Shown one piece after another: positions 12,653-24,426 of a DNA stretch of 64,000 bases (position 1 is the stretch's first letter; every line of letters begins with the position of its first letter). Location of the stretch: positions 186,001 through 250,000 of the forward strand of contig WGNJ01000013.1 of NCBI GenBank assembly GCA_016124635.1, read 5' to 3'. The notes beneath the pieces are model-generated. The model was not told the origin of the DNA and ran no database searches. It saw only the letters and a program-made list of their open reading frames with translations. The stretch comes from Alphaproteobacteria bacterium (lineage in GTDB: Bacteria; Pseudomonadota; Alphaproteobacteria; Micropepsales; Micropepsaceae). The position numbers and the translations under genes were made by a program.

Positions 12653-13516
12653 GTGGACCAAGATTGGCTCTTCACCGTTTTAATCTGGCTCCTCGTCATC
12701 CTCGGCGTGGCTGCAATCGTGCTCGGCGTGTTGGTTGCGGTCGCCCGCCGAATACCCATTGACGATGACGGAGACAGCGACGACGGGGATTTGCCGCAGC
12801 ATCCTCCACGTCCGACTCGCGGCGGCAAGCCGACGCCTCTCAATCTCACGCCGTGCGAGTACACCGGTCTTGGCCTCGCCGACTTTCACCATGACCATCG
12901 TGCGCTGCGCGACTTCGGCGAGCTCGTCACCGTCGCTGCACTCGCCGCTCACGGGTGGAACAAGCTGCCGTCGCGTCTACAGGGCGGGCAGGGAATTGAC
13001 CTACTCATGGTGCGCGAATTGGGCGACGTCGGCGGCTATGAAGCGCGTGCGATCGAAGTGAAAACCAACACAATCTCGTACAACCCCGAAACCATGAGCG
13101 ACGAGCGCATTGCAGGGGCACTCGGGCGCCTGCATGACGCCGGCGCTTTCGACGCCGCCACGCTCGAGGAACTATTGCGCGGCCTTTGGGAGGGTCCGCC
13201 CTATTTTCGAAAGGAGCTGTGGCGCCATCAGCTCGACAGCGGCGCGACCACGATCTTCGACCTCGATGAATTCGGTCAGAAGTGTGGATCGGAGGTTCGG
13301 TCTTCCGGGCATCTAATGGACGCGCTCTTTCAGATCATCAAACAGTTCGACCGGAGGGCCGACTACGTCGACCGTCCGGTGGTCGAGGCGCCGCCTGAAG
13401 AGATTCTGCATGCGGCCGCCACCCGCCGCCCCAAAAAGCGGAAGCGGTCTCTGCTGCAGGCTTACGCAAGAGCGTTCAGCTTCCGCCCGAAGCGGGGCGC
13501 GGCGCGCGGTAAATAG
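12653..13516 (+). CDS. Membrane-anchored PD-(D/E)XK nuclease-like protein
   Basis: 287 residues from GTG 12653. Residues 6-31 form one membrane helix, followed by an acidic then Pro-rich linker (residues 36-60). A soluble domain has the spacing of a restriction-endonuclease-like fold: a helix with Glu90 (FGELVTVAALAAHGW), then GGQGIDLLMV with Asp116, then ARAIEVKTN with Glu135 and Lys137 (E-x-K). The C-terminus is strongly basic (KKRKR, KRGAARGK), which could bind nucleic acid. I infer a nuclease-like domain from the motif only. It stands just upstream of the FNR-box-controlled stress gene, and no toxin/immunity partner is evident. Confidence 0.6.
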   Translation: MDQDWLFTVLIWLLVILGVAAIVLGVLVAVARRIPIDDDGDSDDGDLPQHPPRPTRGGKPTPLNLTPCEYTGLGLADFHHDHRALRDFGELVTVAALAAHGWNKLPSRLQGGQGIDLLMVRELGDVGGYEARAIEVKTNTISYNPETMSDERIAGALGRLHDAGAFDAATLEELLRGLWEGPPYFRKELWRHQLDSGATTIFDLDEFGQKCGSEVRSSGHLMDALFQIIKQFDRRADYVDRPVVEAPPEEILHAAATRRPKKRKRSLLQAYARAFSFRPKRGAARGK

Positions 13517-14643: not shown

Positions 14644-16740
14644 ATGGAACAGAGACGTTCAGAAAAACTGGCAGATTTGTCCGATCTCCTGGCGCAAGCA
14701 GCGCGCCAGGCGCAGTCGGGCCAGTTGGGCGAAGCGGAACGCGCATTGCGGCAAATCTTGCGCGTGTTGCCGGATCAGGCAGATGTGTTGAACTTGCTGG
14801 CGCTCGTTGAACATCGATCCGGCCGCACTGACGCGGCGGTGCGTACCGGCGAGCGCGCGCTGAAGCTAAAACCGAATGTGGCAAACTCCCATGCCAACCT
14901 GGCGGTCATGTATCGTCGTCTCGGGAATTTCGCGAAGGCGATCGAACACGCTCGACGTGCGACGATATTGAAGCCGGATTTCGCCGACGCGCACTACAAT
15001 CTCGGCCTTGCCCAATTCGAGGCGGGTGATCTGGATGCAGCGATAAATTCCTACGATCGTGCGATCGCATTGAAGGGCAGCTTCGCGGAAGCGATCAACA
15101 ATCGAGGTGTGGTCTTTCATAAACTCGGTCGACTCTCCGACGCCGAAGTCGAATTTCGCCGCGCACTGGCTCAAAAGCCGTCCTATCCGGAGGCTCTGAA
15201 CAACTTGGGCACGGTTTTGCGCAATCAAAATAGGTTTGCGGAGGCAGTCGCCGCCTATCAACAAGCGATTGCATTGCGGCCGGGATATGTCGACGCGCTC
15301 AAGAACCTTCTTTTTGCGTACAGGGACCTAGGTCGACCGCACGAGGCGATAGGTGTTGCCAACGAAGTGCTTCGTCTGCACCCGAACGAAAAGACCGTGC
15401 TTTGGGCCCTCACAGAGATCTATCTCGACTTACAGATGCCGGAGGAATCGATTGTCGCGTCCAACAAGCTTATTGCGTTGGGCGACGCGACGGCGGAGAT
15501 CTACGAAAGATTGGGCATCGGCTATGCGCGAACCGCCGATGTCGAAAGTGCGGTCGACGCGTATCGCAAGGCCATTGCGCTTAAGCCGGACTTTGCCTTG
15601 GCATTTGGCCGTCTCGGCAGCGCTCTAAGCCAGCTCGGGCGCTTTGATGAAGCGATGGAGGCATTCAGCAGGGCCCTGCAACTCGACCCGACACTGACGG
15701 ACATTTACCTCGACATTGCCTACGCCAGGACTTTCGGCAGCAGCGACGATCCCGATCTAAAGGCGATGGAAGCCGTGCGGCAGGGAGATCTTCACCGCGA
15801 CCGCCGGGTGTACCTGCACTTCGCGCTTGGAAAAGCTTACGACGACCTCGCGCGCTACGACGAGGCCTTTGAAAATTTTGCCGCCGGGAATCGTCTTGCG
15901 CGGGAAACGATCGTCTACGATGAAGCCCGACAGCTCGAGCATTTCGATCGAACGCGGGAAATGCTCAGTTCGGAGTTCATGAAGGCGAATAGCGGCGTCG
16001 GCAACGAGAGCCAGCGCCCGATCTTCGTTGTCGGCATGGCGCGTGCGGGCACGACGCTGGTCGAACAGATTATAGCAAGTCATCCAGACGCCCATGGTGC
16101 CGGTGAAATCGCCGACTTTGCGTTGGCCGTCGGCGAAGTCGCGCGTCGCTCCGGAAAGAGTGCCGATTATCCAGATGTCGTCAAAGGTCTGCGGCCGGAG
16201 GAGGTCACGCAGGTCGGTGAGACTTACGTCAAGCTATTGGAGCGGCGCGCGCCGGGCAGCGCCAAGCGCATCGTCGACAAGATGCCGCAGAATCTCTTCT
16301 TCATCGGATTGATTCATTTGGCCTTGCCGAATGCCCGGATCGTCCATGTCACGCGCGATCCGCTGGATACATGCTTATCGTGCTATTCGAAGTTGTTCGC
16401 GTCCGGTTGGCCTCAAACCTACGATCTTGAGGAACTGGGCCGGTATTATCGCGCGTATCGCCAGTTGATGGCGCACTGGCACCGGACGCTTCCGGAGAAC
16501 GCCTTGTTCGAGATTCCTTACGAAGAGCTGATTTCCGACAGTGAGGCTTGGACCCGGCGCCTTCTGAATTTCTGCCGTCTTGAGTGGAACGACGCCGTGC
16601 GCGAATTCCACAACAACAAGCGCCCGGTGAAGACGATAAGCCTCGCTCAAGTTCGCCGCCCGATCTATCGCAGCTCGATCGGCCGCTGGCGCAACTATGA
16701 GAAGCACCTAGGTTCGCTGATCTCTGCACTGTCCGGTTGA
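14644..16740 (+). CDS. TPR-repeat sulfotransferase fusion protein
   Basis: 698 residues. Residues about 15-440 are a long TPR array (repeats such as ANLAVMYRRLGNFAKAIEHA and LNNLGTVLRNQNRFAEAVAAY). From about 458 a PAPS-dependent sulfotransferase domain begins: the 5' phosphosulfate loop GMARAGTTLVEQII, and the 3' phosphate-binding segment RIVHVTRDPLDTCLSCYSK near 565-582. A conserved-looking YRSSIGRWRNYEKHL closes the protein. It transfers sulfate from PAPS, probably to a polysaccharide, protein or lipid held by the TPR region. No signal peptide, so cytoplasmic. No PAPS synthesis or glycan genes are nearby. Confidence 0.9.
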   Translation: MEQRRSEKLADLSDLLAQAARQAQSGQLGEAERALRQILRVLPDQADVLNLLALVEHRSGRTDAAVRTGERALKLKPNVANSHANLAVMYRRLGNFAKAIEHARRATILKPDFADAHYNLGLAQFEAGDLDAAINSYDRAIALKGSFAEAINNRGVVFHKLGRLSDAEVEFRRALAQKPSYPEALNNLGTVLRNQNRFAEAVAAYQQAIALRPGYVDALKNLLFAYRDLGRPHEAIGVANEVLRLHPNEKTVLWALTEIYLDLQMPEESIVASNKLIALGDATAEIYERLGIGYARTADVESAVDAYRKAIALKPDFALAFGRLGSALSQLGRFDEAMEAFSRALQLDPTLTDIYLDIAYARTFGSSDDPDLKAMEAVRQGDLHRDRRVYLHFALGKAYDDLARYDEAFENFAAGNRLARETIVYDEARQLEHFDRTREMLSSEFMKANSGVGNESQRPIFVVGMARAGTTLVEQIIASHPDAHGAGEIADFALAVGEVARRSGKSADYPDVVKGLRPEEVTQVGETYVKLLERRAPGSAKRIVDKMPQNLFFIGLIHLALPNARIVHVTRDPLDTCLSCYSKLFASGWPQTYDLEELGRYYRAYRQLMAHWHRTLPENALFEIPYEELISDSEAWTRRLLNFCRLEWNDAVREFHNNKRPVKTISLAQVRRPIYRSSIGRWRNYEKHLGSLISALSG

Positions 16741-19149: not shown

Positions 19150-19186
19150 AAGGCGCGGAGCTTTTGCTCCGCGCCTTGTTCTTTTA
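19150..19186 (+). terminator. Rho-independent terminator after barrel 2
   Basis: Perfect twelve-pair stem AAGGCGCGGAGC (19150-19161) with GCTCCGCGCCTT (19166-19177), loop TTTT, then GTTCTTTT. It ends at the stop of the convergent Clp-type gene. Confidence 0.92.
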
Positions 19187-22100
19187 GGGCTGTGCCGCGC
19201 CGATGAGATCGAAGTCGCCGCGCATCACTTGATCGAACTTGCCGGTGCGCCACGCGCCGGAAGCGTCGCGCACCAATGGCGATGCGCCGCCGCGATAGCG
19301 CCGGACCACGGTGTTCGACGTTGCCGTCTTGGCAAAGCGCTCGCGGATCGCACTTTCGAGCCGTGCCTGTGGCAGATCGCCGAGCGGCGCTATGGCAAGC
19401 CGCACACGCGCCGTCGCGCGCCCCGCGTCCTCGCCCTGCTCGAGAACATGCAATCCGACCTCGGGCAGCAGCAGCCGATGCGCGCCGAAGCCCGAGACCA
19501 GCAGGATCGGCAGGCTCTTGTCGGCCGGATTGGTCATCTCGGAGAACTGCATGTTCCGCGCCTCCGCCCACGAGCGGTACATGCCGCCGAGTTGTGCGCA
19601 CCACTTGCGGGTCGCGGCGGTGTCGCCCGACGCATCGAGCGCCGGCTCGATCAGCAGCGCCACTTCGATTGGCGCCCCTTCGAGCGCGTCTTGCACACCG
19701 AGCTTCACGACGTGCAACTGCAGGGCCAGGCGCTGGATCAGTTCGCGCGAATATTGCGCCTTCGCCGTTCCGCGCGCCAGACGAGCCTGCAACGACGCCG
19801 CCGTATTTGCCGCTGCCTGCACACGGTCCATCAGCGCCAATCGCGCCAATGTCGTGTGGCGCTCCGGGCGTGACCAGAAGTCGGGCTTCGACATCTCTTC
19901 GGCGAGTCGCAGCTTGATTTGATCCCATTGTTCGGAGGCTATCGTGCGCTCGATCTCGCCTGCCGCCGCGTCGAGCGCCTCGCGCTCGGCTGGCGTGCCC
20001 ATGGGGTCGAGGATCATGGCGCGGAGGTTGGGCCGCGCGCCGTTGTTGTCGCTCGAAGACTTCGGCAGGGCATCGGCGTTCGGATCGACGAACTCGGCCT
20101 GGATGCCTTGCCCGTCGCTGCGCACGAAGACGAATTGGTCGCCCTCGGGAAAGCGGCGCTCGACGATGGTCGCGGCGAGCGGCGCCAGCACGTATTGATC
20201 GATCGCGCGCTTCAGCGGCCGCGCCCCCATCTCCGGCGAAAAGCCCTTCTCCAGCAGAAAGTCTTGCGCCGAGGCCTCCCATTCGACGGCCCAGTCGCGA
20301 TCTTTGAGACCGCGCCGCTCGAGCACTTGCTTCAGCTCCTTCCTCAGGATTCCGCGCATCAATTCGCGCGTCAGCGGCTTGAACACGATCACCTTGTCGA
20401 GGCGGTTCTGAAATTCGGGTCTGAAGGTTTGCGCGATCACCGTGTTGATCTGATCCGGCGAGAACGTTTCGGCGGCCGGCGCAAAGCCGAGGCCGGAGCC
20501 GCGATGGGCTGTGGCGCCAAGGTTGCTCGTCAAGATGATGATCGTGTGGCGGAAGTCGGCGACGCGGCCGGAAGCGTCGGAGAGCCGCGCATCGTCGAAC
20601 ACCTGCAGGAACATGTCCCACACGCGGGCGTGCGCCTTTTCGAACTCGTCGAGCAGCACGACGGAGAAGGGCTGTTTGCGCACGCGGTTGATGAGCGAGT
20701 CCGTGTCCGGCCGGTCGCCGCTCTCGCCCAAGATCTTGATCGTCGATTCCGGAGTTTGGAATTCGCTCATGTCGAGACGGATCAGCCGGTCTGCGGAGCC
20801 GAACAGGTATTCCGCCAGCGTTTTGGCGAGCTCGGTTTTGCCGGTGCCGGTGGGGCCTGCAAACAAGAACACGCCGATCGGTTTGCCCGAATCGACGAGC
20901 CCCGCCTTGAGCATGGCGATGCGGTCGACGACCGCGCCGACGGCTTCGTCCTGGCCGATGACGCGTGCCGAAAAGAATTGTCGGATGGCGGCGAGGTCGA
21001 GGCGCTCCTTGTTGTCGAGTATCGAGACGGGCAGGCCCGTCACCTGGGCCAATGTCTGGGTCACGTCCTCGGCCGTTAGCATCCTCTTGTTTTCAGTGAT
21101 GCAACGGTTCGCCGTCCGCTTGATGAGGTCGAGCAGATTGCCCGGCAGCTTCTCGTCGCTCACATATTGCCGCGCCAGGTCGATTGCGACGGGGATCGCA
21201 CCATTGTCGACGGTCAGACGTCGTTGCGCGGTTAGGCGCTGGCAGAATCCCACCGCGAGCGCCGTTGCCTCCTGCTCGGAGTGGGGCTCGATGCGCACGA
21301 CTTCAAGCAGGGCGCGTAAGTTCGGCCGCGCCTGCATCAGCCGCGTGGCCTCCGCTGGCGTGGCCTCGCTCCAAATGATCAATCGCCCCGCGGAGATCGA
21401 CGGCAGGATTTGATCGAGAATGCTGGCGCTTTGGCCGCGATGCGTGCCGCTCGAAGCGACTTGGAGCATATCCGGGATGTACCAGATGAGTTTCTTGCTG
21501 GCCGCAAGCTCTTCGGTCGCGCGGCGAATACGCTCTTCGAGTTGCCCGATATAGACCTGACCGGCTTGCAGATCGACGCCGCTCGCCTCGAACACGCCCC
21601 AGCCCTTTCGCGCCAGCTTGCCGTTCAGCAATTTCAGGAGCGAGGATTTGCCGACGCCGCGCTCGCCGGTGATCAGCAGCGACCGTTGGGGCGCTTGAGC
21701 AAGGGCGCCCTCAGCTGTCTGCATGGCCTCGCGCCAGGGTGCTGCGTCGATCAAGAGCTCGCCCTCTTCGCGCGCGTTCCAAAAGCGTCCGAACGAGCGC
21801 AAGAATTGCCGGTCGATGCTCGAATGTTGGAAGCTGATCAGATCTTCGACGAGTTTCGTCGCAAACGGGTGATTGAGCCGTTTCAGAAAGGCCTCGATCT
21901 CGCCGGGTGTCGAGGCGCCGTGCCGGTTCAGCGCCGCGCCGAAGACGGCCGCTTCGCCGGCTTGTTGGCATTTCGTGAAGTATTCGCGAAATGCAGCCGG
22001 GATCATGTTGTTGTTGGTCCACCACTCCTTGGCGGCAACGGCAGGCGCGCCGGCGGGCGGGCGCGGGCGCGCGCCGGCCAAGAATTGCAGCGCGAAATAG

Positions 22101-22600
22101 ATCGCCCACGGGCGCATGTTCGAAAACTGCTCGACGACCTCGTCGGCGACTTCGCCGCCGTCGTCGCGCTCGGCAAGCGCCGCCAACGCCGCGCACGAGA
22201 GTCCCCAATTCGCGCCGGTCGCGTATTGCAGCACGGTGTCGATGTCGACATCCGGCAAGACCAGCAGCGCGACCGCCTCTTTGAACTTGGCGTGCGCCGC
22301 CAGGTCGCGCGGATGTGCGCTGTTGTCGCCGAATGCCTCGAATTCGTCCGCGAGCATATGCAGCTTGACGGTGAGTGAGCTCGCCTCGGGCTCGCGGTGG
22401 GTATCGTCTTCCGGTGGCCCGGGCCGGGATGTTGGCAGCTCTACTTGCAGCTTGGGCTGGTCTGGCGAGTGCGGCGACCTGTCGCCGAAGACGCGCCGCG
22501 CGGCGTCGGTAAGCGTGAGCCCGCCCCAAATCCACGCAAGAAAGACCACGGCGAGGAAGCCGCCGAGCATGTAGCCGAAAATCACGATGAAGGTATCCAA
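19184..22600 (-). CDS. Membrane-anchored Clp/Hsp100 ATPase fused to a release-factor-2-like domain lacking GGQ
   Basis: 1138 residues. One membrane helix (about 4-26), then an acidic linker and a unique helical region (about 70-290). AAA module 1: Walker A GERGVGKS (312-319), but the Walker B position reads YIPDM without the Glu. AAA module 2 is intact ClpB/ClpA type: VIGQDEAV (548), Walker A GPTGTGKT (582-589), Walker B VVLLDE (647-652), TSN sensor (691), FRPEFQNRLD arginine finger region (726), GARPLKR sensor 2 (792). Residues about 880-1138 resemble bacterial RF2: KPDFWSRPE (905), MYRSWAEARN (1007), GAHRLLLPE (1039), tail RTGKFDQVMRGDFD (1118). The GGQ hydrolase domain is missing. It may unfold or remodel ribosome-associated substrates at the membrane (inference). 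Probable operon with the upstream methyltransferase. Confidence 0.85.
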   Translation of the reverse strand: MDTFIVIFGYMLGGFLAVVFLAWIWGGLTLTDAARRVFGDRSPHSPDQPKLQVELPTSRPGPPEDDTHREPEASSLTVKLHMLADEFEAFGDNSAHPRDLAAHAKFKEAVALLVLPDVDIDTVLQYATGANWGLSCAALAALAERDDGGEVADEVVEQFSNMRPWAIYFALQFLAGARPRPPAGAPAVAAKEWWTNNNMIPAAFREYFTKCQQAGEAAVFGAALNRHGASTPGEIEAFLKRLNHPFATKLVEDLISFQHSSIDRQFLRSFGRFWNAREEGELLIDAAPWREAMQTAEGALAQAPQRSLLITGERGVGKSSLLKLLNGKLARKGWGVFEASGVDLQAGQVYIGQLEERIRRATEELAASKKLIWYIPDMLQVASSGTHRGQSASILDQILPSISAGRLIIWSEATPAEATRLMQARPNLRALLEVVRIEPHSEQEATALAVGFCQRLTAQRRLTVDNGAIPVAIDLARQYVSDEKLPGNLLDLIKRTANRCITENKRMLTAEDVTQTLAQVTGLPVSILDNKERLDLAAIRQFFSARVIGQDEAVGAVVDRIAMLKAGLVDSGKPIGVFLFAGPTGTGKTELAKTLAEYLFGSADRLIRLDMSEFQTPESTIKILGESGDRPDTDSLINRVRKQPFSVVLLDEFEKAHARVWDMFLQVFDDARLSDASGRVADFRHTIIILTSNLGATAHRGSGLGFAPAAETFSPDQINTVIAQTFRPEFQNRLDKVIVFKPLTRELMRGILRKELKQVLERRGLKDRDWAVEWEASAQDFLLEKGFSPEMGARPLKRAIDQYVLAPLAATIVERRFPEGDQFVFVRSDGQGIQAEFVDPNADALPKSSSDNNGARPNLRAMILDPMGTPAEREALDAAAGEIERTIASEQWDQIKLRLAEEMSKPDFWSRPERHTTLARLALMDRVQAAANTAASLQARLARGTAKAQYSRELIQRLALQLHVVKLGVQDALEGAPIEVALLIEPALDASGDTAATRKWCAQLGGMYRSWAEARNMQFSEMTNPADKSLPILLVSGFGAHRLLLPEVGLHVLEQGEDAGRATARVRLAIAPLGDLPQARLESAIRERFAKTATSNTVVRRYRGGASPLVRDASGAWRTGKFDQVMRGDFDLIGAAQP

Positions 22601-22669: not shown

Positions 22670-23482
22670 TCACCGCTTGCGCGCGACAATCTCAAGCACC
22701 AGCGGTGTCACCATCAGGCTCCGCCGATCGGCTTTCGCCGCCGTCAGGGCTGCGCGCGTGTCCGCTGCGTCTTGCGCTGTTAACCGACCCGACGCGAGGA
22801 GCCTTTCTAGAAACGAGGCGACGAAGCTCGCGGGCCATTGCCAGAACGCGTTTCCAGGCGGCACGATTTCGATGATCGGGCGTGCCGAACGGATCTCGAA
22901 TCCGGCGTCGGCAAGGTGGTGCCGTAGGGCGAGACCGCTGTCGATCTTCCCGCCCTCGGCTCTGACGCTGTCGATGACAGCGTCGACGAACCGCTCGAAC
23001 ATAGTCGACCGTGGTGCCAAGCGCCACGAGCGATAATCGAGATACTCGTGAAAGACGGCGACACCGCCGGGCTTCAGCGCTCGCGCCAAATGCCCGATGA
23101 CGGCCTTCGGTTCACGCACAAAGGAGAGAACCCAGCGGCACCAGGCCGCGTCCGCGACCGCCTCGCCGAATGTTGCGTCGACGACATCCACTTCGATCGT
23201 CGAAACGTTGTGCAGGCGGTGTCGCCGTGTCCGCGCCGTAAGCGCGTCGAGAAACCGCCTCGACCGCTCGACTGCGATGACCTGGCCGCTTTCGCCGACA
23301 ATTTTCGCCAGATCCTCGCTCGCATAGCCAGGCCCAGCACCGACATCGATCACGGTTTGGCCAGTCGTGATTCCTGCGCGACGCCAAGCGTCCAAGGCGT
23401 GCTCGCGCCAAACCTGGTGCTGAAAGCCTAGCCGTTCGATTTCCGCATCATGCGTGCCGAGCACATAGTCGCGATCGCTCAT
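22670..23482 (-). CDS. SAM-dependent class I methyltransferase
   Basis: 270 residues. Motif I VIDVGAGPGYASEDLA binds SAM, the acidic residue of motif II is in VIAVERS, and ALKPGGVAVFHEYLDY is post-motif II/III. The C-terminal part after residue 190 carries no extra domain. The substrate is unknown; the sequence looks like a UbiE/small-molecule type rather than an RNA or DNA enzyme. It lies 69 bases upstream of the Clp-RF2-like gene on the same strand and may be co-transcribed with it, which would be worth noting if the ATPase acts on ribosomes. Confidence 0.88.
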   Translation of the reverse strand: MSDRDYVLGTHDAEIERLGFQHQVWREHALDAWRRAGITTGQTVIDVGAGPGYASEDLAKIVGESGQVIAVERSRRFLDALTARTRRHRLHNVSTIEVDVVDATFGEAVADAAWCRWVLSFVREPKAVIGHLARALKPGGVAVFHEYLDYRSWRLAPRSTMFERFVDAVIDSVRAEGGKIDSGLALRHHLADAGFEIRSARPIIEIVPPGNAFWQWPASFVASFLERLLASGRLTAQDAADTRAALTAAKADRRSLMVTPLVLEIVARKR

Positions 23483-23550: not shown

Positions 23551-24426
23551 TCAGGCAGCTTGAGGCGCCGCACCCGCGACGCTGGTGCGGAACATCTCGC
23601 GGCGCTGGCCGTGGTAATCGTTGAGCGCGTTGTGTTGCGTCGCGCGGTTGTCCCAGATCGTCAGCGTACCCTTCGCCCACCGAACCCGGCAGGTGAAATT
23701 GTCGTTGAGCGCATGCTTGTAGAGATATTGCAGCAGAGCCTGGCTCTCGCCGTGAGACCATCCATCGATGCGCACGGTGTAGACCGGATTGACGAAGAGC
23801 GCGGGCTTGCCTGACTCGGGATGCCGCACCACGATCGGATGCACCATCTCGTGGTAGGCATCCTTCGACGGTTCGATCGCCGTGGACATTTTGTGCTTCA
23901 CGGAGTCGAGGTAGCCGCCGGTGCCGTAGGCCGCACCGGCCGAATGCACTGCGCGCAACCCGCGCAGTGTCTCCTTCAGGCCGTCCGACAAGGTTTCGTA
24001 GGCGAGATATTGGTTCTGAAACAACGTATCGCCGCCGTAGTCCGGCACCTCGTGCGCGTAGAGCAAGGTGAAGCTCGGCGGCTCCGGCAGATACGTCAGG
24101 TCCGAGTGCCAAGCATTGGCGAAGTTCAGCTTGTCGGCGCGCTCCTTGAGCACACGGATCACATACGGCCGTTCATCGAGCGCTTTGACGAACGGCGTCA
24201 CCATGCGCCCGCCGAGCTGATCGGTGAGCCGCTCCAAATCGTCGAGCGACATCGACTGCTCCGGGATGGTGACCACGAGATGATCGATCAGCGCCCGTCT
24301 GAGCGCTGCGACATCCGCCGCCGACAGTGTGGTGCTGCAGTCGAGACCCAGGACTTCGGCGCCGAGCGCACCGGCAATGCGCTCTGCACGAACCGTTGAA
24401 TGCGAAACCTGATGCGTGGCAACCAT
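23551..24426 (-). CDS. TauD/TfdA-family Fe(II)/2-oxoglutarate dioxygenase
   Basis: 291 residues, typical length. The iron-binding H-x-D is in NAWHSDLTYLPEP; the distal His and the 2-oxoglutarate Arg are in TIWDNRATQHNALNDYHGQRREMFRTSV. PDYGGDTLFQNQ is the usual substrate-loop strand. These enzymes hydroxylate sulfonates, herbicides or sulfate esters to release sulfite or an alcohol. The substrate is not determined; taurine dioxygenase is the best-known relative. No sulfonate ABC transporter is next to it. Confidence 0.9.
   Translation of the reverse strand: MVATHQVSHSTVRAERIAGALGAEVLGLDCSTTLSAADVAALRRALIDHLVVTIPEQSMSLDDLERLTDQLGGRMVTPFVKALDERPYVIRVLKERADKLNFANAWHSDLTYLPEPPSFTLLYAHEVPDYGGDTLFQNQYLAYETLSDGLKETLRGLRAVHSAGAAYGTGGYLDSVKHKMSTAIEPSKDAYHEMVHPIVVRHPESGKPALFVNPVYTVRIDGWSHGESQALLQYLYKHALNDNFTCRVRWAKGTLTIWDNRATQHNALNDYHGQRREMFRTSVAGAAPQAA

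Follow-up and report, generated by a model that had tools for sequence, protein, structure and literature searches.

A rare family of bacterial Clp-type AAA+ proteins with a predicted release factor 2-derived tail

In the Clp/Hsp100 machine ClpA, the pore-1 tyrosines are reported to touch substrate and are regarded as indispensable to its translocation (PMC9663308), and ClpP is described as being docked by the IGL of ClpA and the IGF of ClpX (PMC7707817). In peptide chain release factor 2 (RF2), the SPF motif and the switch loop are described as making the codon and decoding-centre contacts, and domain 1 as touching the L11 stalk (PMC5378476). Release-factor paralogues with parts missing, RFH (prfH) and ArfB/YaeJ, have also been reported (PMC1586002). 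Here we analyse a gene that joins a Clp-type motor to a tail that derives from RF2. It lies on the minus strand at 19184–22600 of a 64,000-nucleotide stretch from an alphaproteobacterial genome (Micropepsaceae; contig WGNJ01000013.1, positions 186,001 to 250,000), which we call the window. The open reading frame of 1138 amino acids agrees in strand and length with the initial annotation, and starts at a TTG at 22600 with GAGGGG nine bases 5′ of it. Among the papers listed by searches aimed at such a Clp-RF2 protein, in literature that was mostly non-subscription, we found no description of it, and an unremarked domain-database entry may exist.

The C-terminal 250 or so residues had been read as RF2-like with the GGQ segment absent, and both points are borne out by family profiles, profile alignment and predicted structure. 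Taken alone, the last 280 residues of the window protein match the NCBIfam prfB model at E 8.8e-5, RF2 chains in the PDB at E 0.005 and Pfam PCRF at E 6.8e-4 (19.9 bits, below the 24-bit cut-off). The prfB model and PCRF each match 10 of 12 family tails at E ≤ 1, with best values of 1e-9 and 8e-11, respectively. Run against PDB sequences, a profile built from the 12 tails reaches RF2 at E 4e-11; of the 31 matches at E ≤ 1, 30 fall on release factors and one on a ferritin-like protein (3ez0, E 0.078). The top PDB matches include a second stretch (profile columns 246–279 on RF2 322–355) that is insignificant alone, and between the aligned stretches about 26 profile columns stand opposite RF2 224–321, the part containing the GGQ domain. 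Likewise, hhalign aligned 18 tails with 29 RF2 rows at 97.7% and E 1.8e-12 (one comparison) over residues 5–337 of the genome's own RF2; this alignment spans domain 1 to the C-terminal end and leaves the GGQ domain opposite a gap.

An AlphaFold model of the tail from the 12 family rows has a pLDDT (predicted local distance difference test) of 88.3 and a pTM (predicted template modelling score) of 0.87. Foldseek returned 49 PDB matches to it at E ≤ 0.001, all carrying release-factor titles apart from 4v4s and 4v4r; these two are titled as ribosome complexes, chain 4v4s_AY is named RF2, and 4v4r_AY we take to be a release factor. The TM-scores are modest, at 0.29–0.52 with free RF2 (1gqe) the best; release factors are hinged and the tail lacks the GGQ domain. 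In the converse test, the tail profile matched 259 of 385 genomes of the class at E ≤ 0.001, two of them by the fused protein. In each of the 28 next-best loci, which were those fetched from the remainder, a reading frame contains both GGQ and an RF2 codon motif; the frame of L068 is short at 238 amino acids. Two RF1 models match 5 and 4 of the 12 tails, against the 10 matched by prfB; the hhalign comparison with RF1 used one sequence and is an unfair contrast with the RF2 alignment. The source genome has separate RF1 and RF2 genes of its own. Across residues 870–1138, RF2 similarity stands above background and the model fold matches release factors. Judged by these comparisons, the tail is derived from RF2, with which it shares homologous domains 1 and 2, the C-terminal end of domain 4 and the predicted fold.

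Conservation reaches 90% or more in 114 columns of 23 RF2 sequences, and all 18 tails retain 16 of these (W26, W123, M130, Y131, W134, A135, G164, A167, E174, G176, H178, R303, Y305, V313, G331 and D334 in the numbering of the genome's own RF2). The S and P of SPF, the RRHTS motif and the switch-loop Trp are each kept in none of the 18, and the GGTE residues in 0, 1, 1 and 3. The Q of GGQ is likewise kept in none, and all 18 tails are free of a GGQ motif; four proteins (L046, L090, L103 and L105) have GGQ elsewhere, in the D2-small domain. L092 alone has two RF1-like PxT strings, and these lie within the stretch replacing domain 3, not at the codon loop. MAFFT and hhalign place the hairpin after GLH differently; we followed the hhalign placement, which agrees with the order of strands in the model as judged against that of RF2. 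Since the tail has lost SPF, RRHTS, GGTE, GGQ and the Trp of the switch loop but retains the RF2 core, the release-factor activities should be gone and the fold preserved. The tail is thus predicted to be incapable of release-factor action, with peptidyl-tRNA hydrolysis absent. The initial annotation had proposed this loss of hydrolase function, which agrees with our prediction, together with retention of ribosome-contacting parts, which does not hold for the contact residues: what is kept is the fold, domain 1 included. These losses and the fusion to a Clp motor set the tail apart from RF2. RFH and ArfB/YaeJ keep the GGQ motif, and RFH lacks domain 1; the tail has kept domains 1 and 2/4 and lost the GGQ domain.

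The family is rare, and the fusion is constant in the carriers found. The genomic survey for the same architecture proposed with the initial annotation found 24 carrier genomes: G000, G005, G006, G009, G010, G016, G410, G452, G459, G607, G834, G863, G867, G897, G911, G935 and G946, and seven further records (L038–L042, L048 and L049). Loci L043–L047 were taken as the same genomes as G009, G005, G010, G016 and G006, and were counted once. The distribution is patchy: 8 of 96 genomes examined within the order are carriers, as are 2 of 385 within the class, 3 of 398 within the phylum and 8 of 147 within the family to which G834 belongs. The named records are metagenome-assembled genomes (MAGs) that bear the labels Hyphomicrobiaceae, Hyphomonadaceae, Hyphomicrobiales, Xanthobacteraceae, Alphaproteobacteria, Rhodobiaceae, Proteobacteria and one Acidobacteria, where misbinning may have occurred. 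By contrast, G834 consists of one 4.4-Mb contig with 100% completeness, so the Clp-RF2 gene is no assembly artefact. No unfused RF2-like tail occurred among the matches listed, ordered by score, in the scans of the order, class, phylum and G834 family, and the tails in short frames (L043, L047 and L096) are all at contig ends. Nor was a motor lacking the tail found among 100 relatives, in which carriers with long matches score at least 776 bits before a drop to about 246 for ordinary Clp proteins, or by the profile of the N-domain in 299 genomes, two of which it matched, both Clp-RF2 carriers. In a tree of the D2 module, all 19 members form one clade with support 100/100 on a long stem; the tree carries a long-branch warning and has no ClpC rows, and supports rather than demonstrates a single origin.

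Some irregularities in individual records were also noted. In the Acidobacteria-labelled MAG, the frame is broken within the RF2-like tail (L049, 5811–6409), and this record may be misbinned or mis-assembled. A run of N with a repeated RGAFEL flank in the D1 region of L046/L035 is an assembly gap. An in-frame TGA inside the matches of some genomes proved, where inspected, to be the stop codon at the protein end.

Table 1. Features of the Clp-RF2 gene and its product, in window coordinates
Feature	Residues	Position	Strand	Basis or remark
Whole gene: Clp/Hsp100 ATPase, N-terminal hydrophobic helix and RF2-derived C-terminal region		19184..22600	-	1138 aa, stop included
N-terminal hydrophobic helix, probable membrane anchor	2-26	22523..22597	-	Helix in low-confidence full-length model; Kyte-Doolittle
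Helical N-domain, no known family	76-290	21731..22375	-	Helical in model
AAA+ module D1	about 300-530	21011..21703	-	NCBIfam ClpA match 309-813
D1 Walker A, GERGVGKS	312-319	21644..21667	-	
D1 pore loop VYIG, aromatic kept	349-352	21545..21556	-	Pattern in 18/19 members
D1 Walker B position, reads WYIPD	373-377	21470..21484	-	IDE-H pattern absent
AAA+ module D2	573-736	20393..20884	-	Pfam AAA_2 E 1.1e-41
Site of the ClpA/ClpB D2 GYVG pore loop	625-635	20696..20728	-	Absent, length variable
LGF tripeptide at the position of the ClpA IGF/IGL (ClpP-docking) loop	704-706	20483..20491	-	
ClpB_D2-small domain	743-823	20132..20374	-	Pfam E 3.9e-18
RF2 domain 1-like helices	870-974	19679..19993	-	HMM (hidden Markov model) profile, AlphaFold, hhalign
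RF2 domain 2-like part	979-1070	19391..19666	-	Pfam, HMM profile, AlphaFold, hhalign
Shortened turn replacing the SPF codon-recognition loop	1055-1061	19418..19438	-	hhalign placement, AlphaFold
Short stretch replacing GGQ domain 3	1071-1097	19310..19390	-	
RF2 domain 4-like C-terminal end (RRYR, PLVRD, WRTG, GDFD)	1098-1136	19193..19309	-	Second HMMER stretch (weak alone), profile alignment

The remainder of the protein (Table 1) is a Clp-type AAA+ motor, as first proposed and as Pfam and NCBIfam confirm, and the N-terminal hydrophobic helix is present too. We counted motor motifs in 19 family proteins longer than 850 amino acids and in 14 ClpA and 13 ClpB comparators. The Walker A, Walker B, sensor 1 and sensor 2 patterns of D2 are present in all 19 members, and the strict Arg-finger pattern in 17; the others, L041 and L042, have Tyr for Phe three places before the Arg finger. 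The IDE-H pattern of the D1 Walker B occurs in 0/19 members against 27/27 comparators, and the D2 GYVG loop shows the same split and is also absent from the shorter L097 and L100. The best NCBIfam score is to ClpB (325.9 bits, far below the cut-off of 1232), and ClpA scores 314.4 bits (cut-off 993, again far higher). Residues 309–813 match positions 210–720 of the ClpA model in a single stretch of near-equal length, so that the M-domain of ClpB could not be accommodated. The best 50 Foldseek matches listed for the full-length model, which is of low confidence (pLDDT 68, pTM 0.39), are ClpC, ClpB and ClpA chains.

With ClpA/ClpC the Clp-RF2 protein shares two AAA+ modules, a ClpA-like length, the aromatic D1 pore loop, the D2 ATPase motifs and, in most members, an xGF tripeptide, and it differs in the missing D2 GYVG and D1 Walker B, in the RF2-like tail and in an unrelated N-domain that bears a hydrophobic helix. 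With ClpB/Hsp104 it shares the best NCBIfam score and a similar D2; it differs in having xGF, which the ClpB comparators lack, in lacking GYVG and in having no space for the M-domain. The designation as a ClpB-type unfoldase is therefore doubtful, favoured by the NCBIfam score and opposed by the ClpA-type loop and the absent M-domain. The N-terminus of the window protein reaches a Kyte-Doolittle maximum of 2.48 (1.6–2.7 in relatives). The hydrophobicity is weakest in L038 and L042 and is not seen in L040, where the start is lost. The model and the hydropathy together suggest that the protein is probably membrane-anchored by this helix. The best Pfam match to the N-domain is weak (E 0.063, in one member of 8), and its best PDB match, to Nup85 at E 0.071, was taken as chance.

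We tentatively favour a two-module Clp machine, probably membrane-tethered, in which the tail would be a decayed RF2 docking module for a protein partner. We favour it because of the RF2 homology, the retention of the core with loss of the contacts, the constant fusion, the restriction of N-domain profile matches to carriers, the single D2 clade, the motor motifs, the hydrophobic N-terminus and the candidate conserved surface at the C-terminal end, with RRY in all 18 tails. The N-terminal helix would anchor a hexamer with its D1 face toward the membrane, placing the D2 face, the xGF loops and the RF2-like tails toward the cytosol. The tails could then capture a protein partner and deliver it to the motor for remodelling by D2 ATP hydrolysis, either without threading or with gripping by the D1 loops only; that the partner formerly bound RF2 is an economical guess. 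A similar layout is known from FtsH-type membrane AAA+ proteases, in which an N-terminal membrane helix is followed by a cytosolic motor and a C-terminal effector domain, and from which the Clp-RF2 protein differs in belonging to another AAA+ clade, in having two modules and in lacking a protease domain. Use of the RF fold as a protein-binding adaptor had been suggested beside ribosome recruitment, and the adaptor fits the residue pattern better. Several points count against such a machine. No partner gene is conserved beside the Clp-RF2 gene, and the proposed docking role rests on residue patterns; the hexamer, its topology and its ATPase activity are predicted, and the full-length model is poor; and a motor lacking GYVG yet possessing a ClpP-type loop would fit no one known mechanism. 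If the docking machine is real, a core translation factor has been stripped of two defining activities and reused inside an AAA+ motor. This raises the testable questions of what a release-factor fold binds besides a stop codon, and of a Clp machine working without the D2 pore loop thought to be needed for threading.

A possible but rather unlikely alternative is ribosome recruitment: contact between domain 1 and the L11 stalk, in place of codon reading, would hold the RF2-like tail on ribosomes, and the motor would thereby be supplied with ribosomes that are stalled or membrane-bound, or with their nascent chains. The tail retains the domain 1-like helices as well as domain 2/4, and domain 1 is described as touching the L11 stalk in complexes of ArfA and RF2 that lack a stop codon (PMC5378476). 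Net charge averages −2.4 over 18 tails, compared with −18.0 for 23 RF2 sequences and −15 for the genome's own RF2 minus its GGQ part, and is thus at least no worse for RNA binding. Set against recruitment is the loss of the codon and decoding-centre residues, the switch loop and the GGQ domain. RF3, which is thought to bind domain 1 (PMC1586002), exceeded the cut-off in 11 of the 15 carriers tested, was present as contig-split pieces in 3 and was not found in G005. It occurs at large in 84/96 and 142/147 genomes, carriers included, and such near-universal presence, outside carriers too, makes it uninformative as a partner and says nothing for ribosome recruitment.

It is unlikely that the protein is a membrane-bound ClpP-dependent protease, with xGF loops docking ClpP below D2 and RF2-like tails gating or selecting substrates. 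An xGF tripeptide follows TSNxG at the ClpA spacing of eight residues in 17/19 members and 13/14 ClpA comparators, and in 0/13 ClpB comparators; the exceptions are L090, where it comes at seven residues, and L103, which reads PAF. ClpP genes were found in 15/15 carriers examined (of the 17 G-numbered carriers), and the best fold matches to the low-confidence full-length model are chains of ClpC-ClpP complexes. However, ClpP is also present in 12/14 control genomes, the GYVG loop for pulling substrate is missing, and the tails would be placed on the side facing ClpP. The tripeptide itself (LGF in 11 members, VGF in 2, MGF in 1, PGF in 4 and PAF in 1) begins with Pro in the four PGF members, in which ClpP docking may have been lost.

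More doubtful is a quality-control machine that docks on ribosomes at the inner membrane, in which the tail would bind ribosomes without reading codons or cutting peptidyl-tRNA, and the motor, held above stalled membrane-bound ribosomes, would extract or hand over their nascent chains. It would be a bacterial counterpart in kind to Cdc48/p97, which acts in eukaryotic ribosome quality control.

We consider it improbable that the tail is a structural or oligomerisation element only, with no specific partner. The loss of functional RF2 residues and the retention of core residues would suit such an element, but the family-specific C-terminal end is conserved: RRYR, PLVR and WR.G are invariant in 12 tails, and across 18 tails RRY is present in all and RRYR in 14. 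This conservation suggests a binding surface, and could also be structural. Chance likeness to RF2 would be consistent with the weak single-sequence scores, the 2 of 12 tails unmatched in each library and the modest TM-scores, and we take it as refuted by the family-profile, PCRF/prfB, AlphaFold, Foldseek and hhalign results and by RF2 being the profile's next-best target.

Among PHROGs, the motor's match is to an ATP-dependent protease (1.1e-140), and its AAA+ part matches PADLOC DolB (1.4e-30) and PDC-M37B (9.7e-23), which belong to known or candidate defence systems. No PADLOC model matched the tail, whose one PHROG match (E 0.003) has no assigned function. A defence role is possible, and no neighbour supports it. 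The whole protein matches 2286 plasmid records, of which the listed rows cover the AAA+ part only and no record covers 80% of the protein; the tail has no match on plasmid records at E ≤ 1. Viral contigs gave 15 pattern matches, none of them a relative, and no viral fold match at E ≤ 0.001.

An all-against-all comparison of neighbours, over 13 and then 21 loci, identified no conserved partner gene. Apart from the gene itself and shadow frames, the largest neighbour groups cover at most 4 of the 21 loci, and all consist of closely related loci or are small sets. An apparent partner in L041 and L042 is an unrelated phosphorylase-type gene. A protein of about 287 amino acids, with an N-terminal hydrophobic stretch, no Pfam family and the pattern GID...E.KTN, which we take to be nuclease-like, is encoded at 12653–13516 (+) in the window. 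Its homologues (L043 855–1721, L044 8840–9709 and L045 4590–5444) directly adjoin the Clp-RF2 gene in three related loci, and in the window the two are about 6 kb apart; we read this as genus-level synteny. Upstream of the Clp-RF2 gene is a TauD-type dioxygenase gene, in the window (23551–24426 (-)) and in two close relatives (L044 4584–5489 and L045 1–744), and in the window a methyltransferase gene (22670–23482) lies between the two. The window also encodes, at 14644–16740 (+), a 698-amino-acid protein with tetratricopeptide (TPR) repeats and a sulfotransferase domain.

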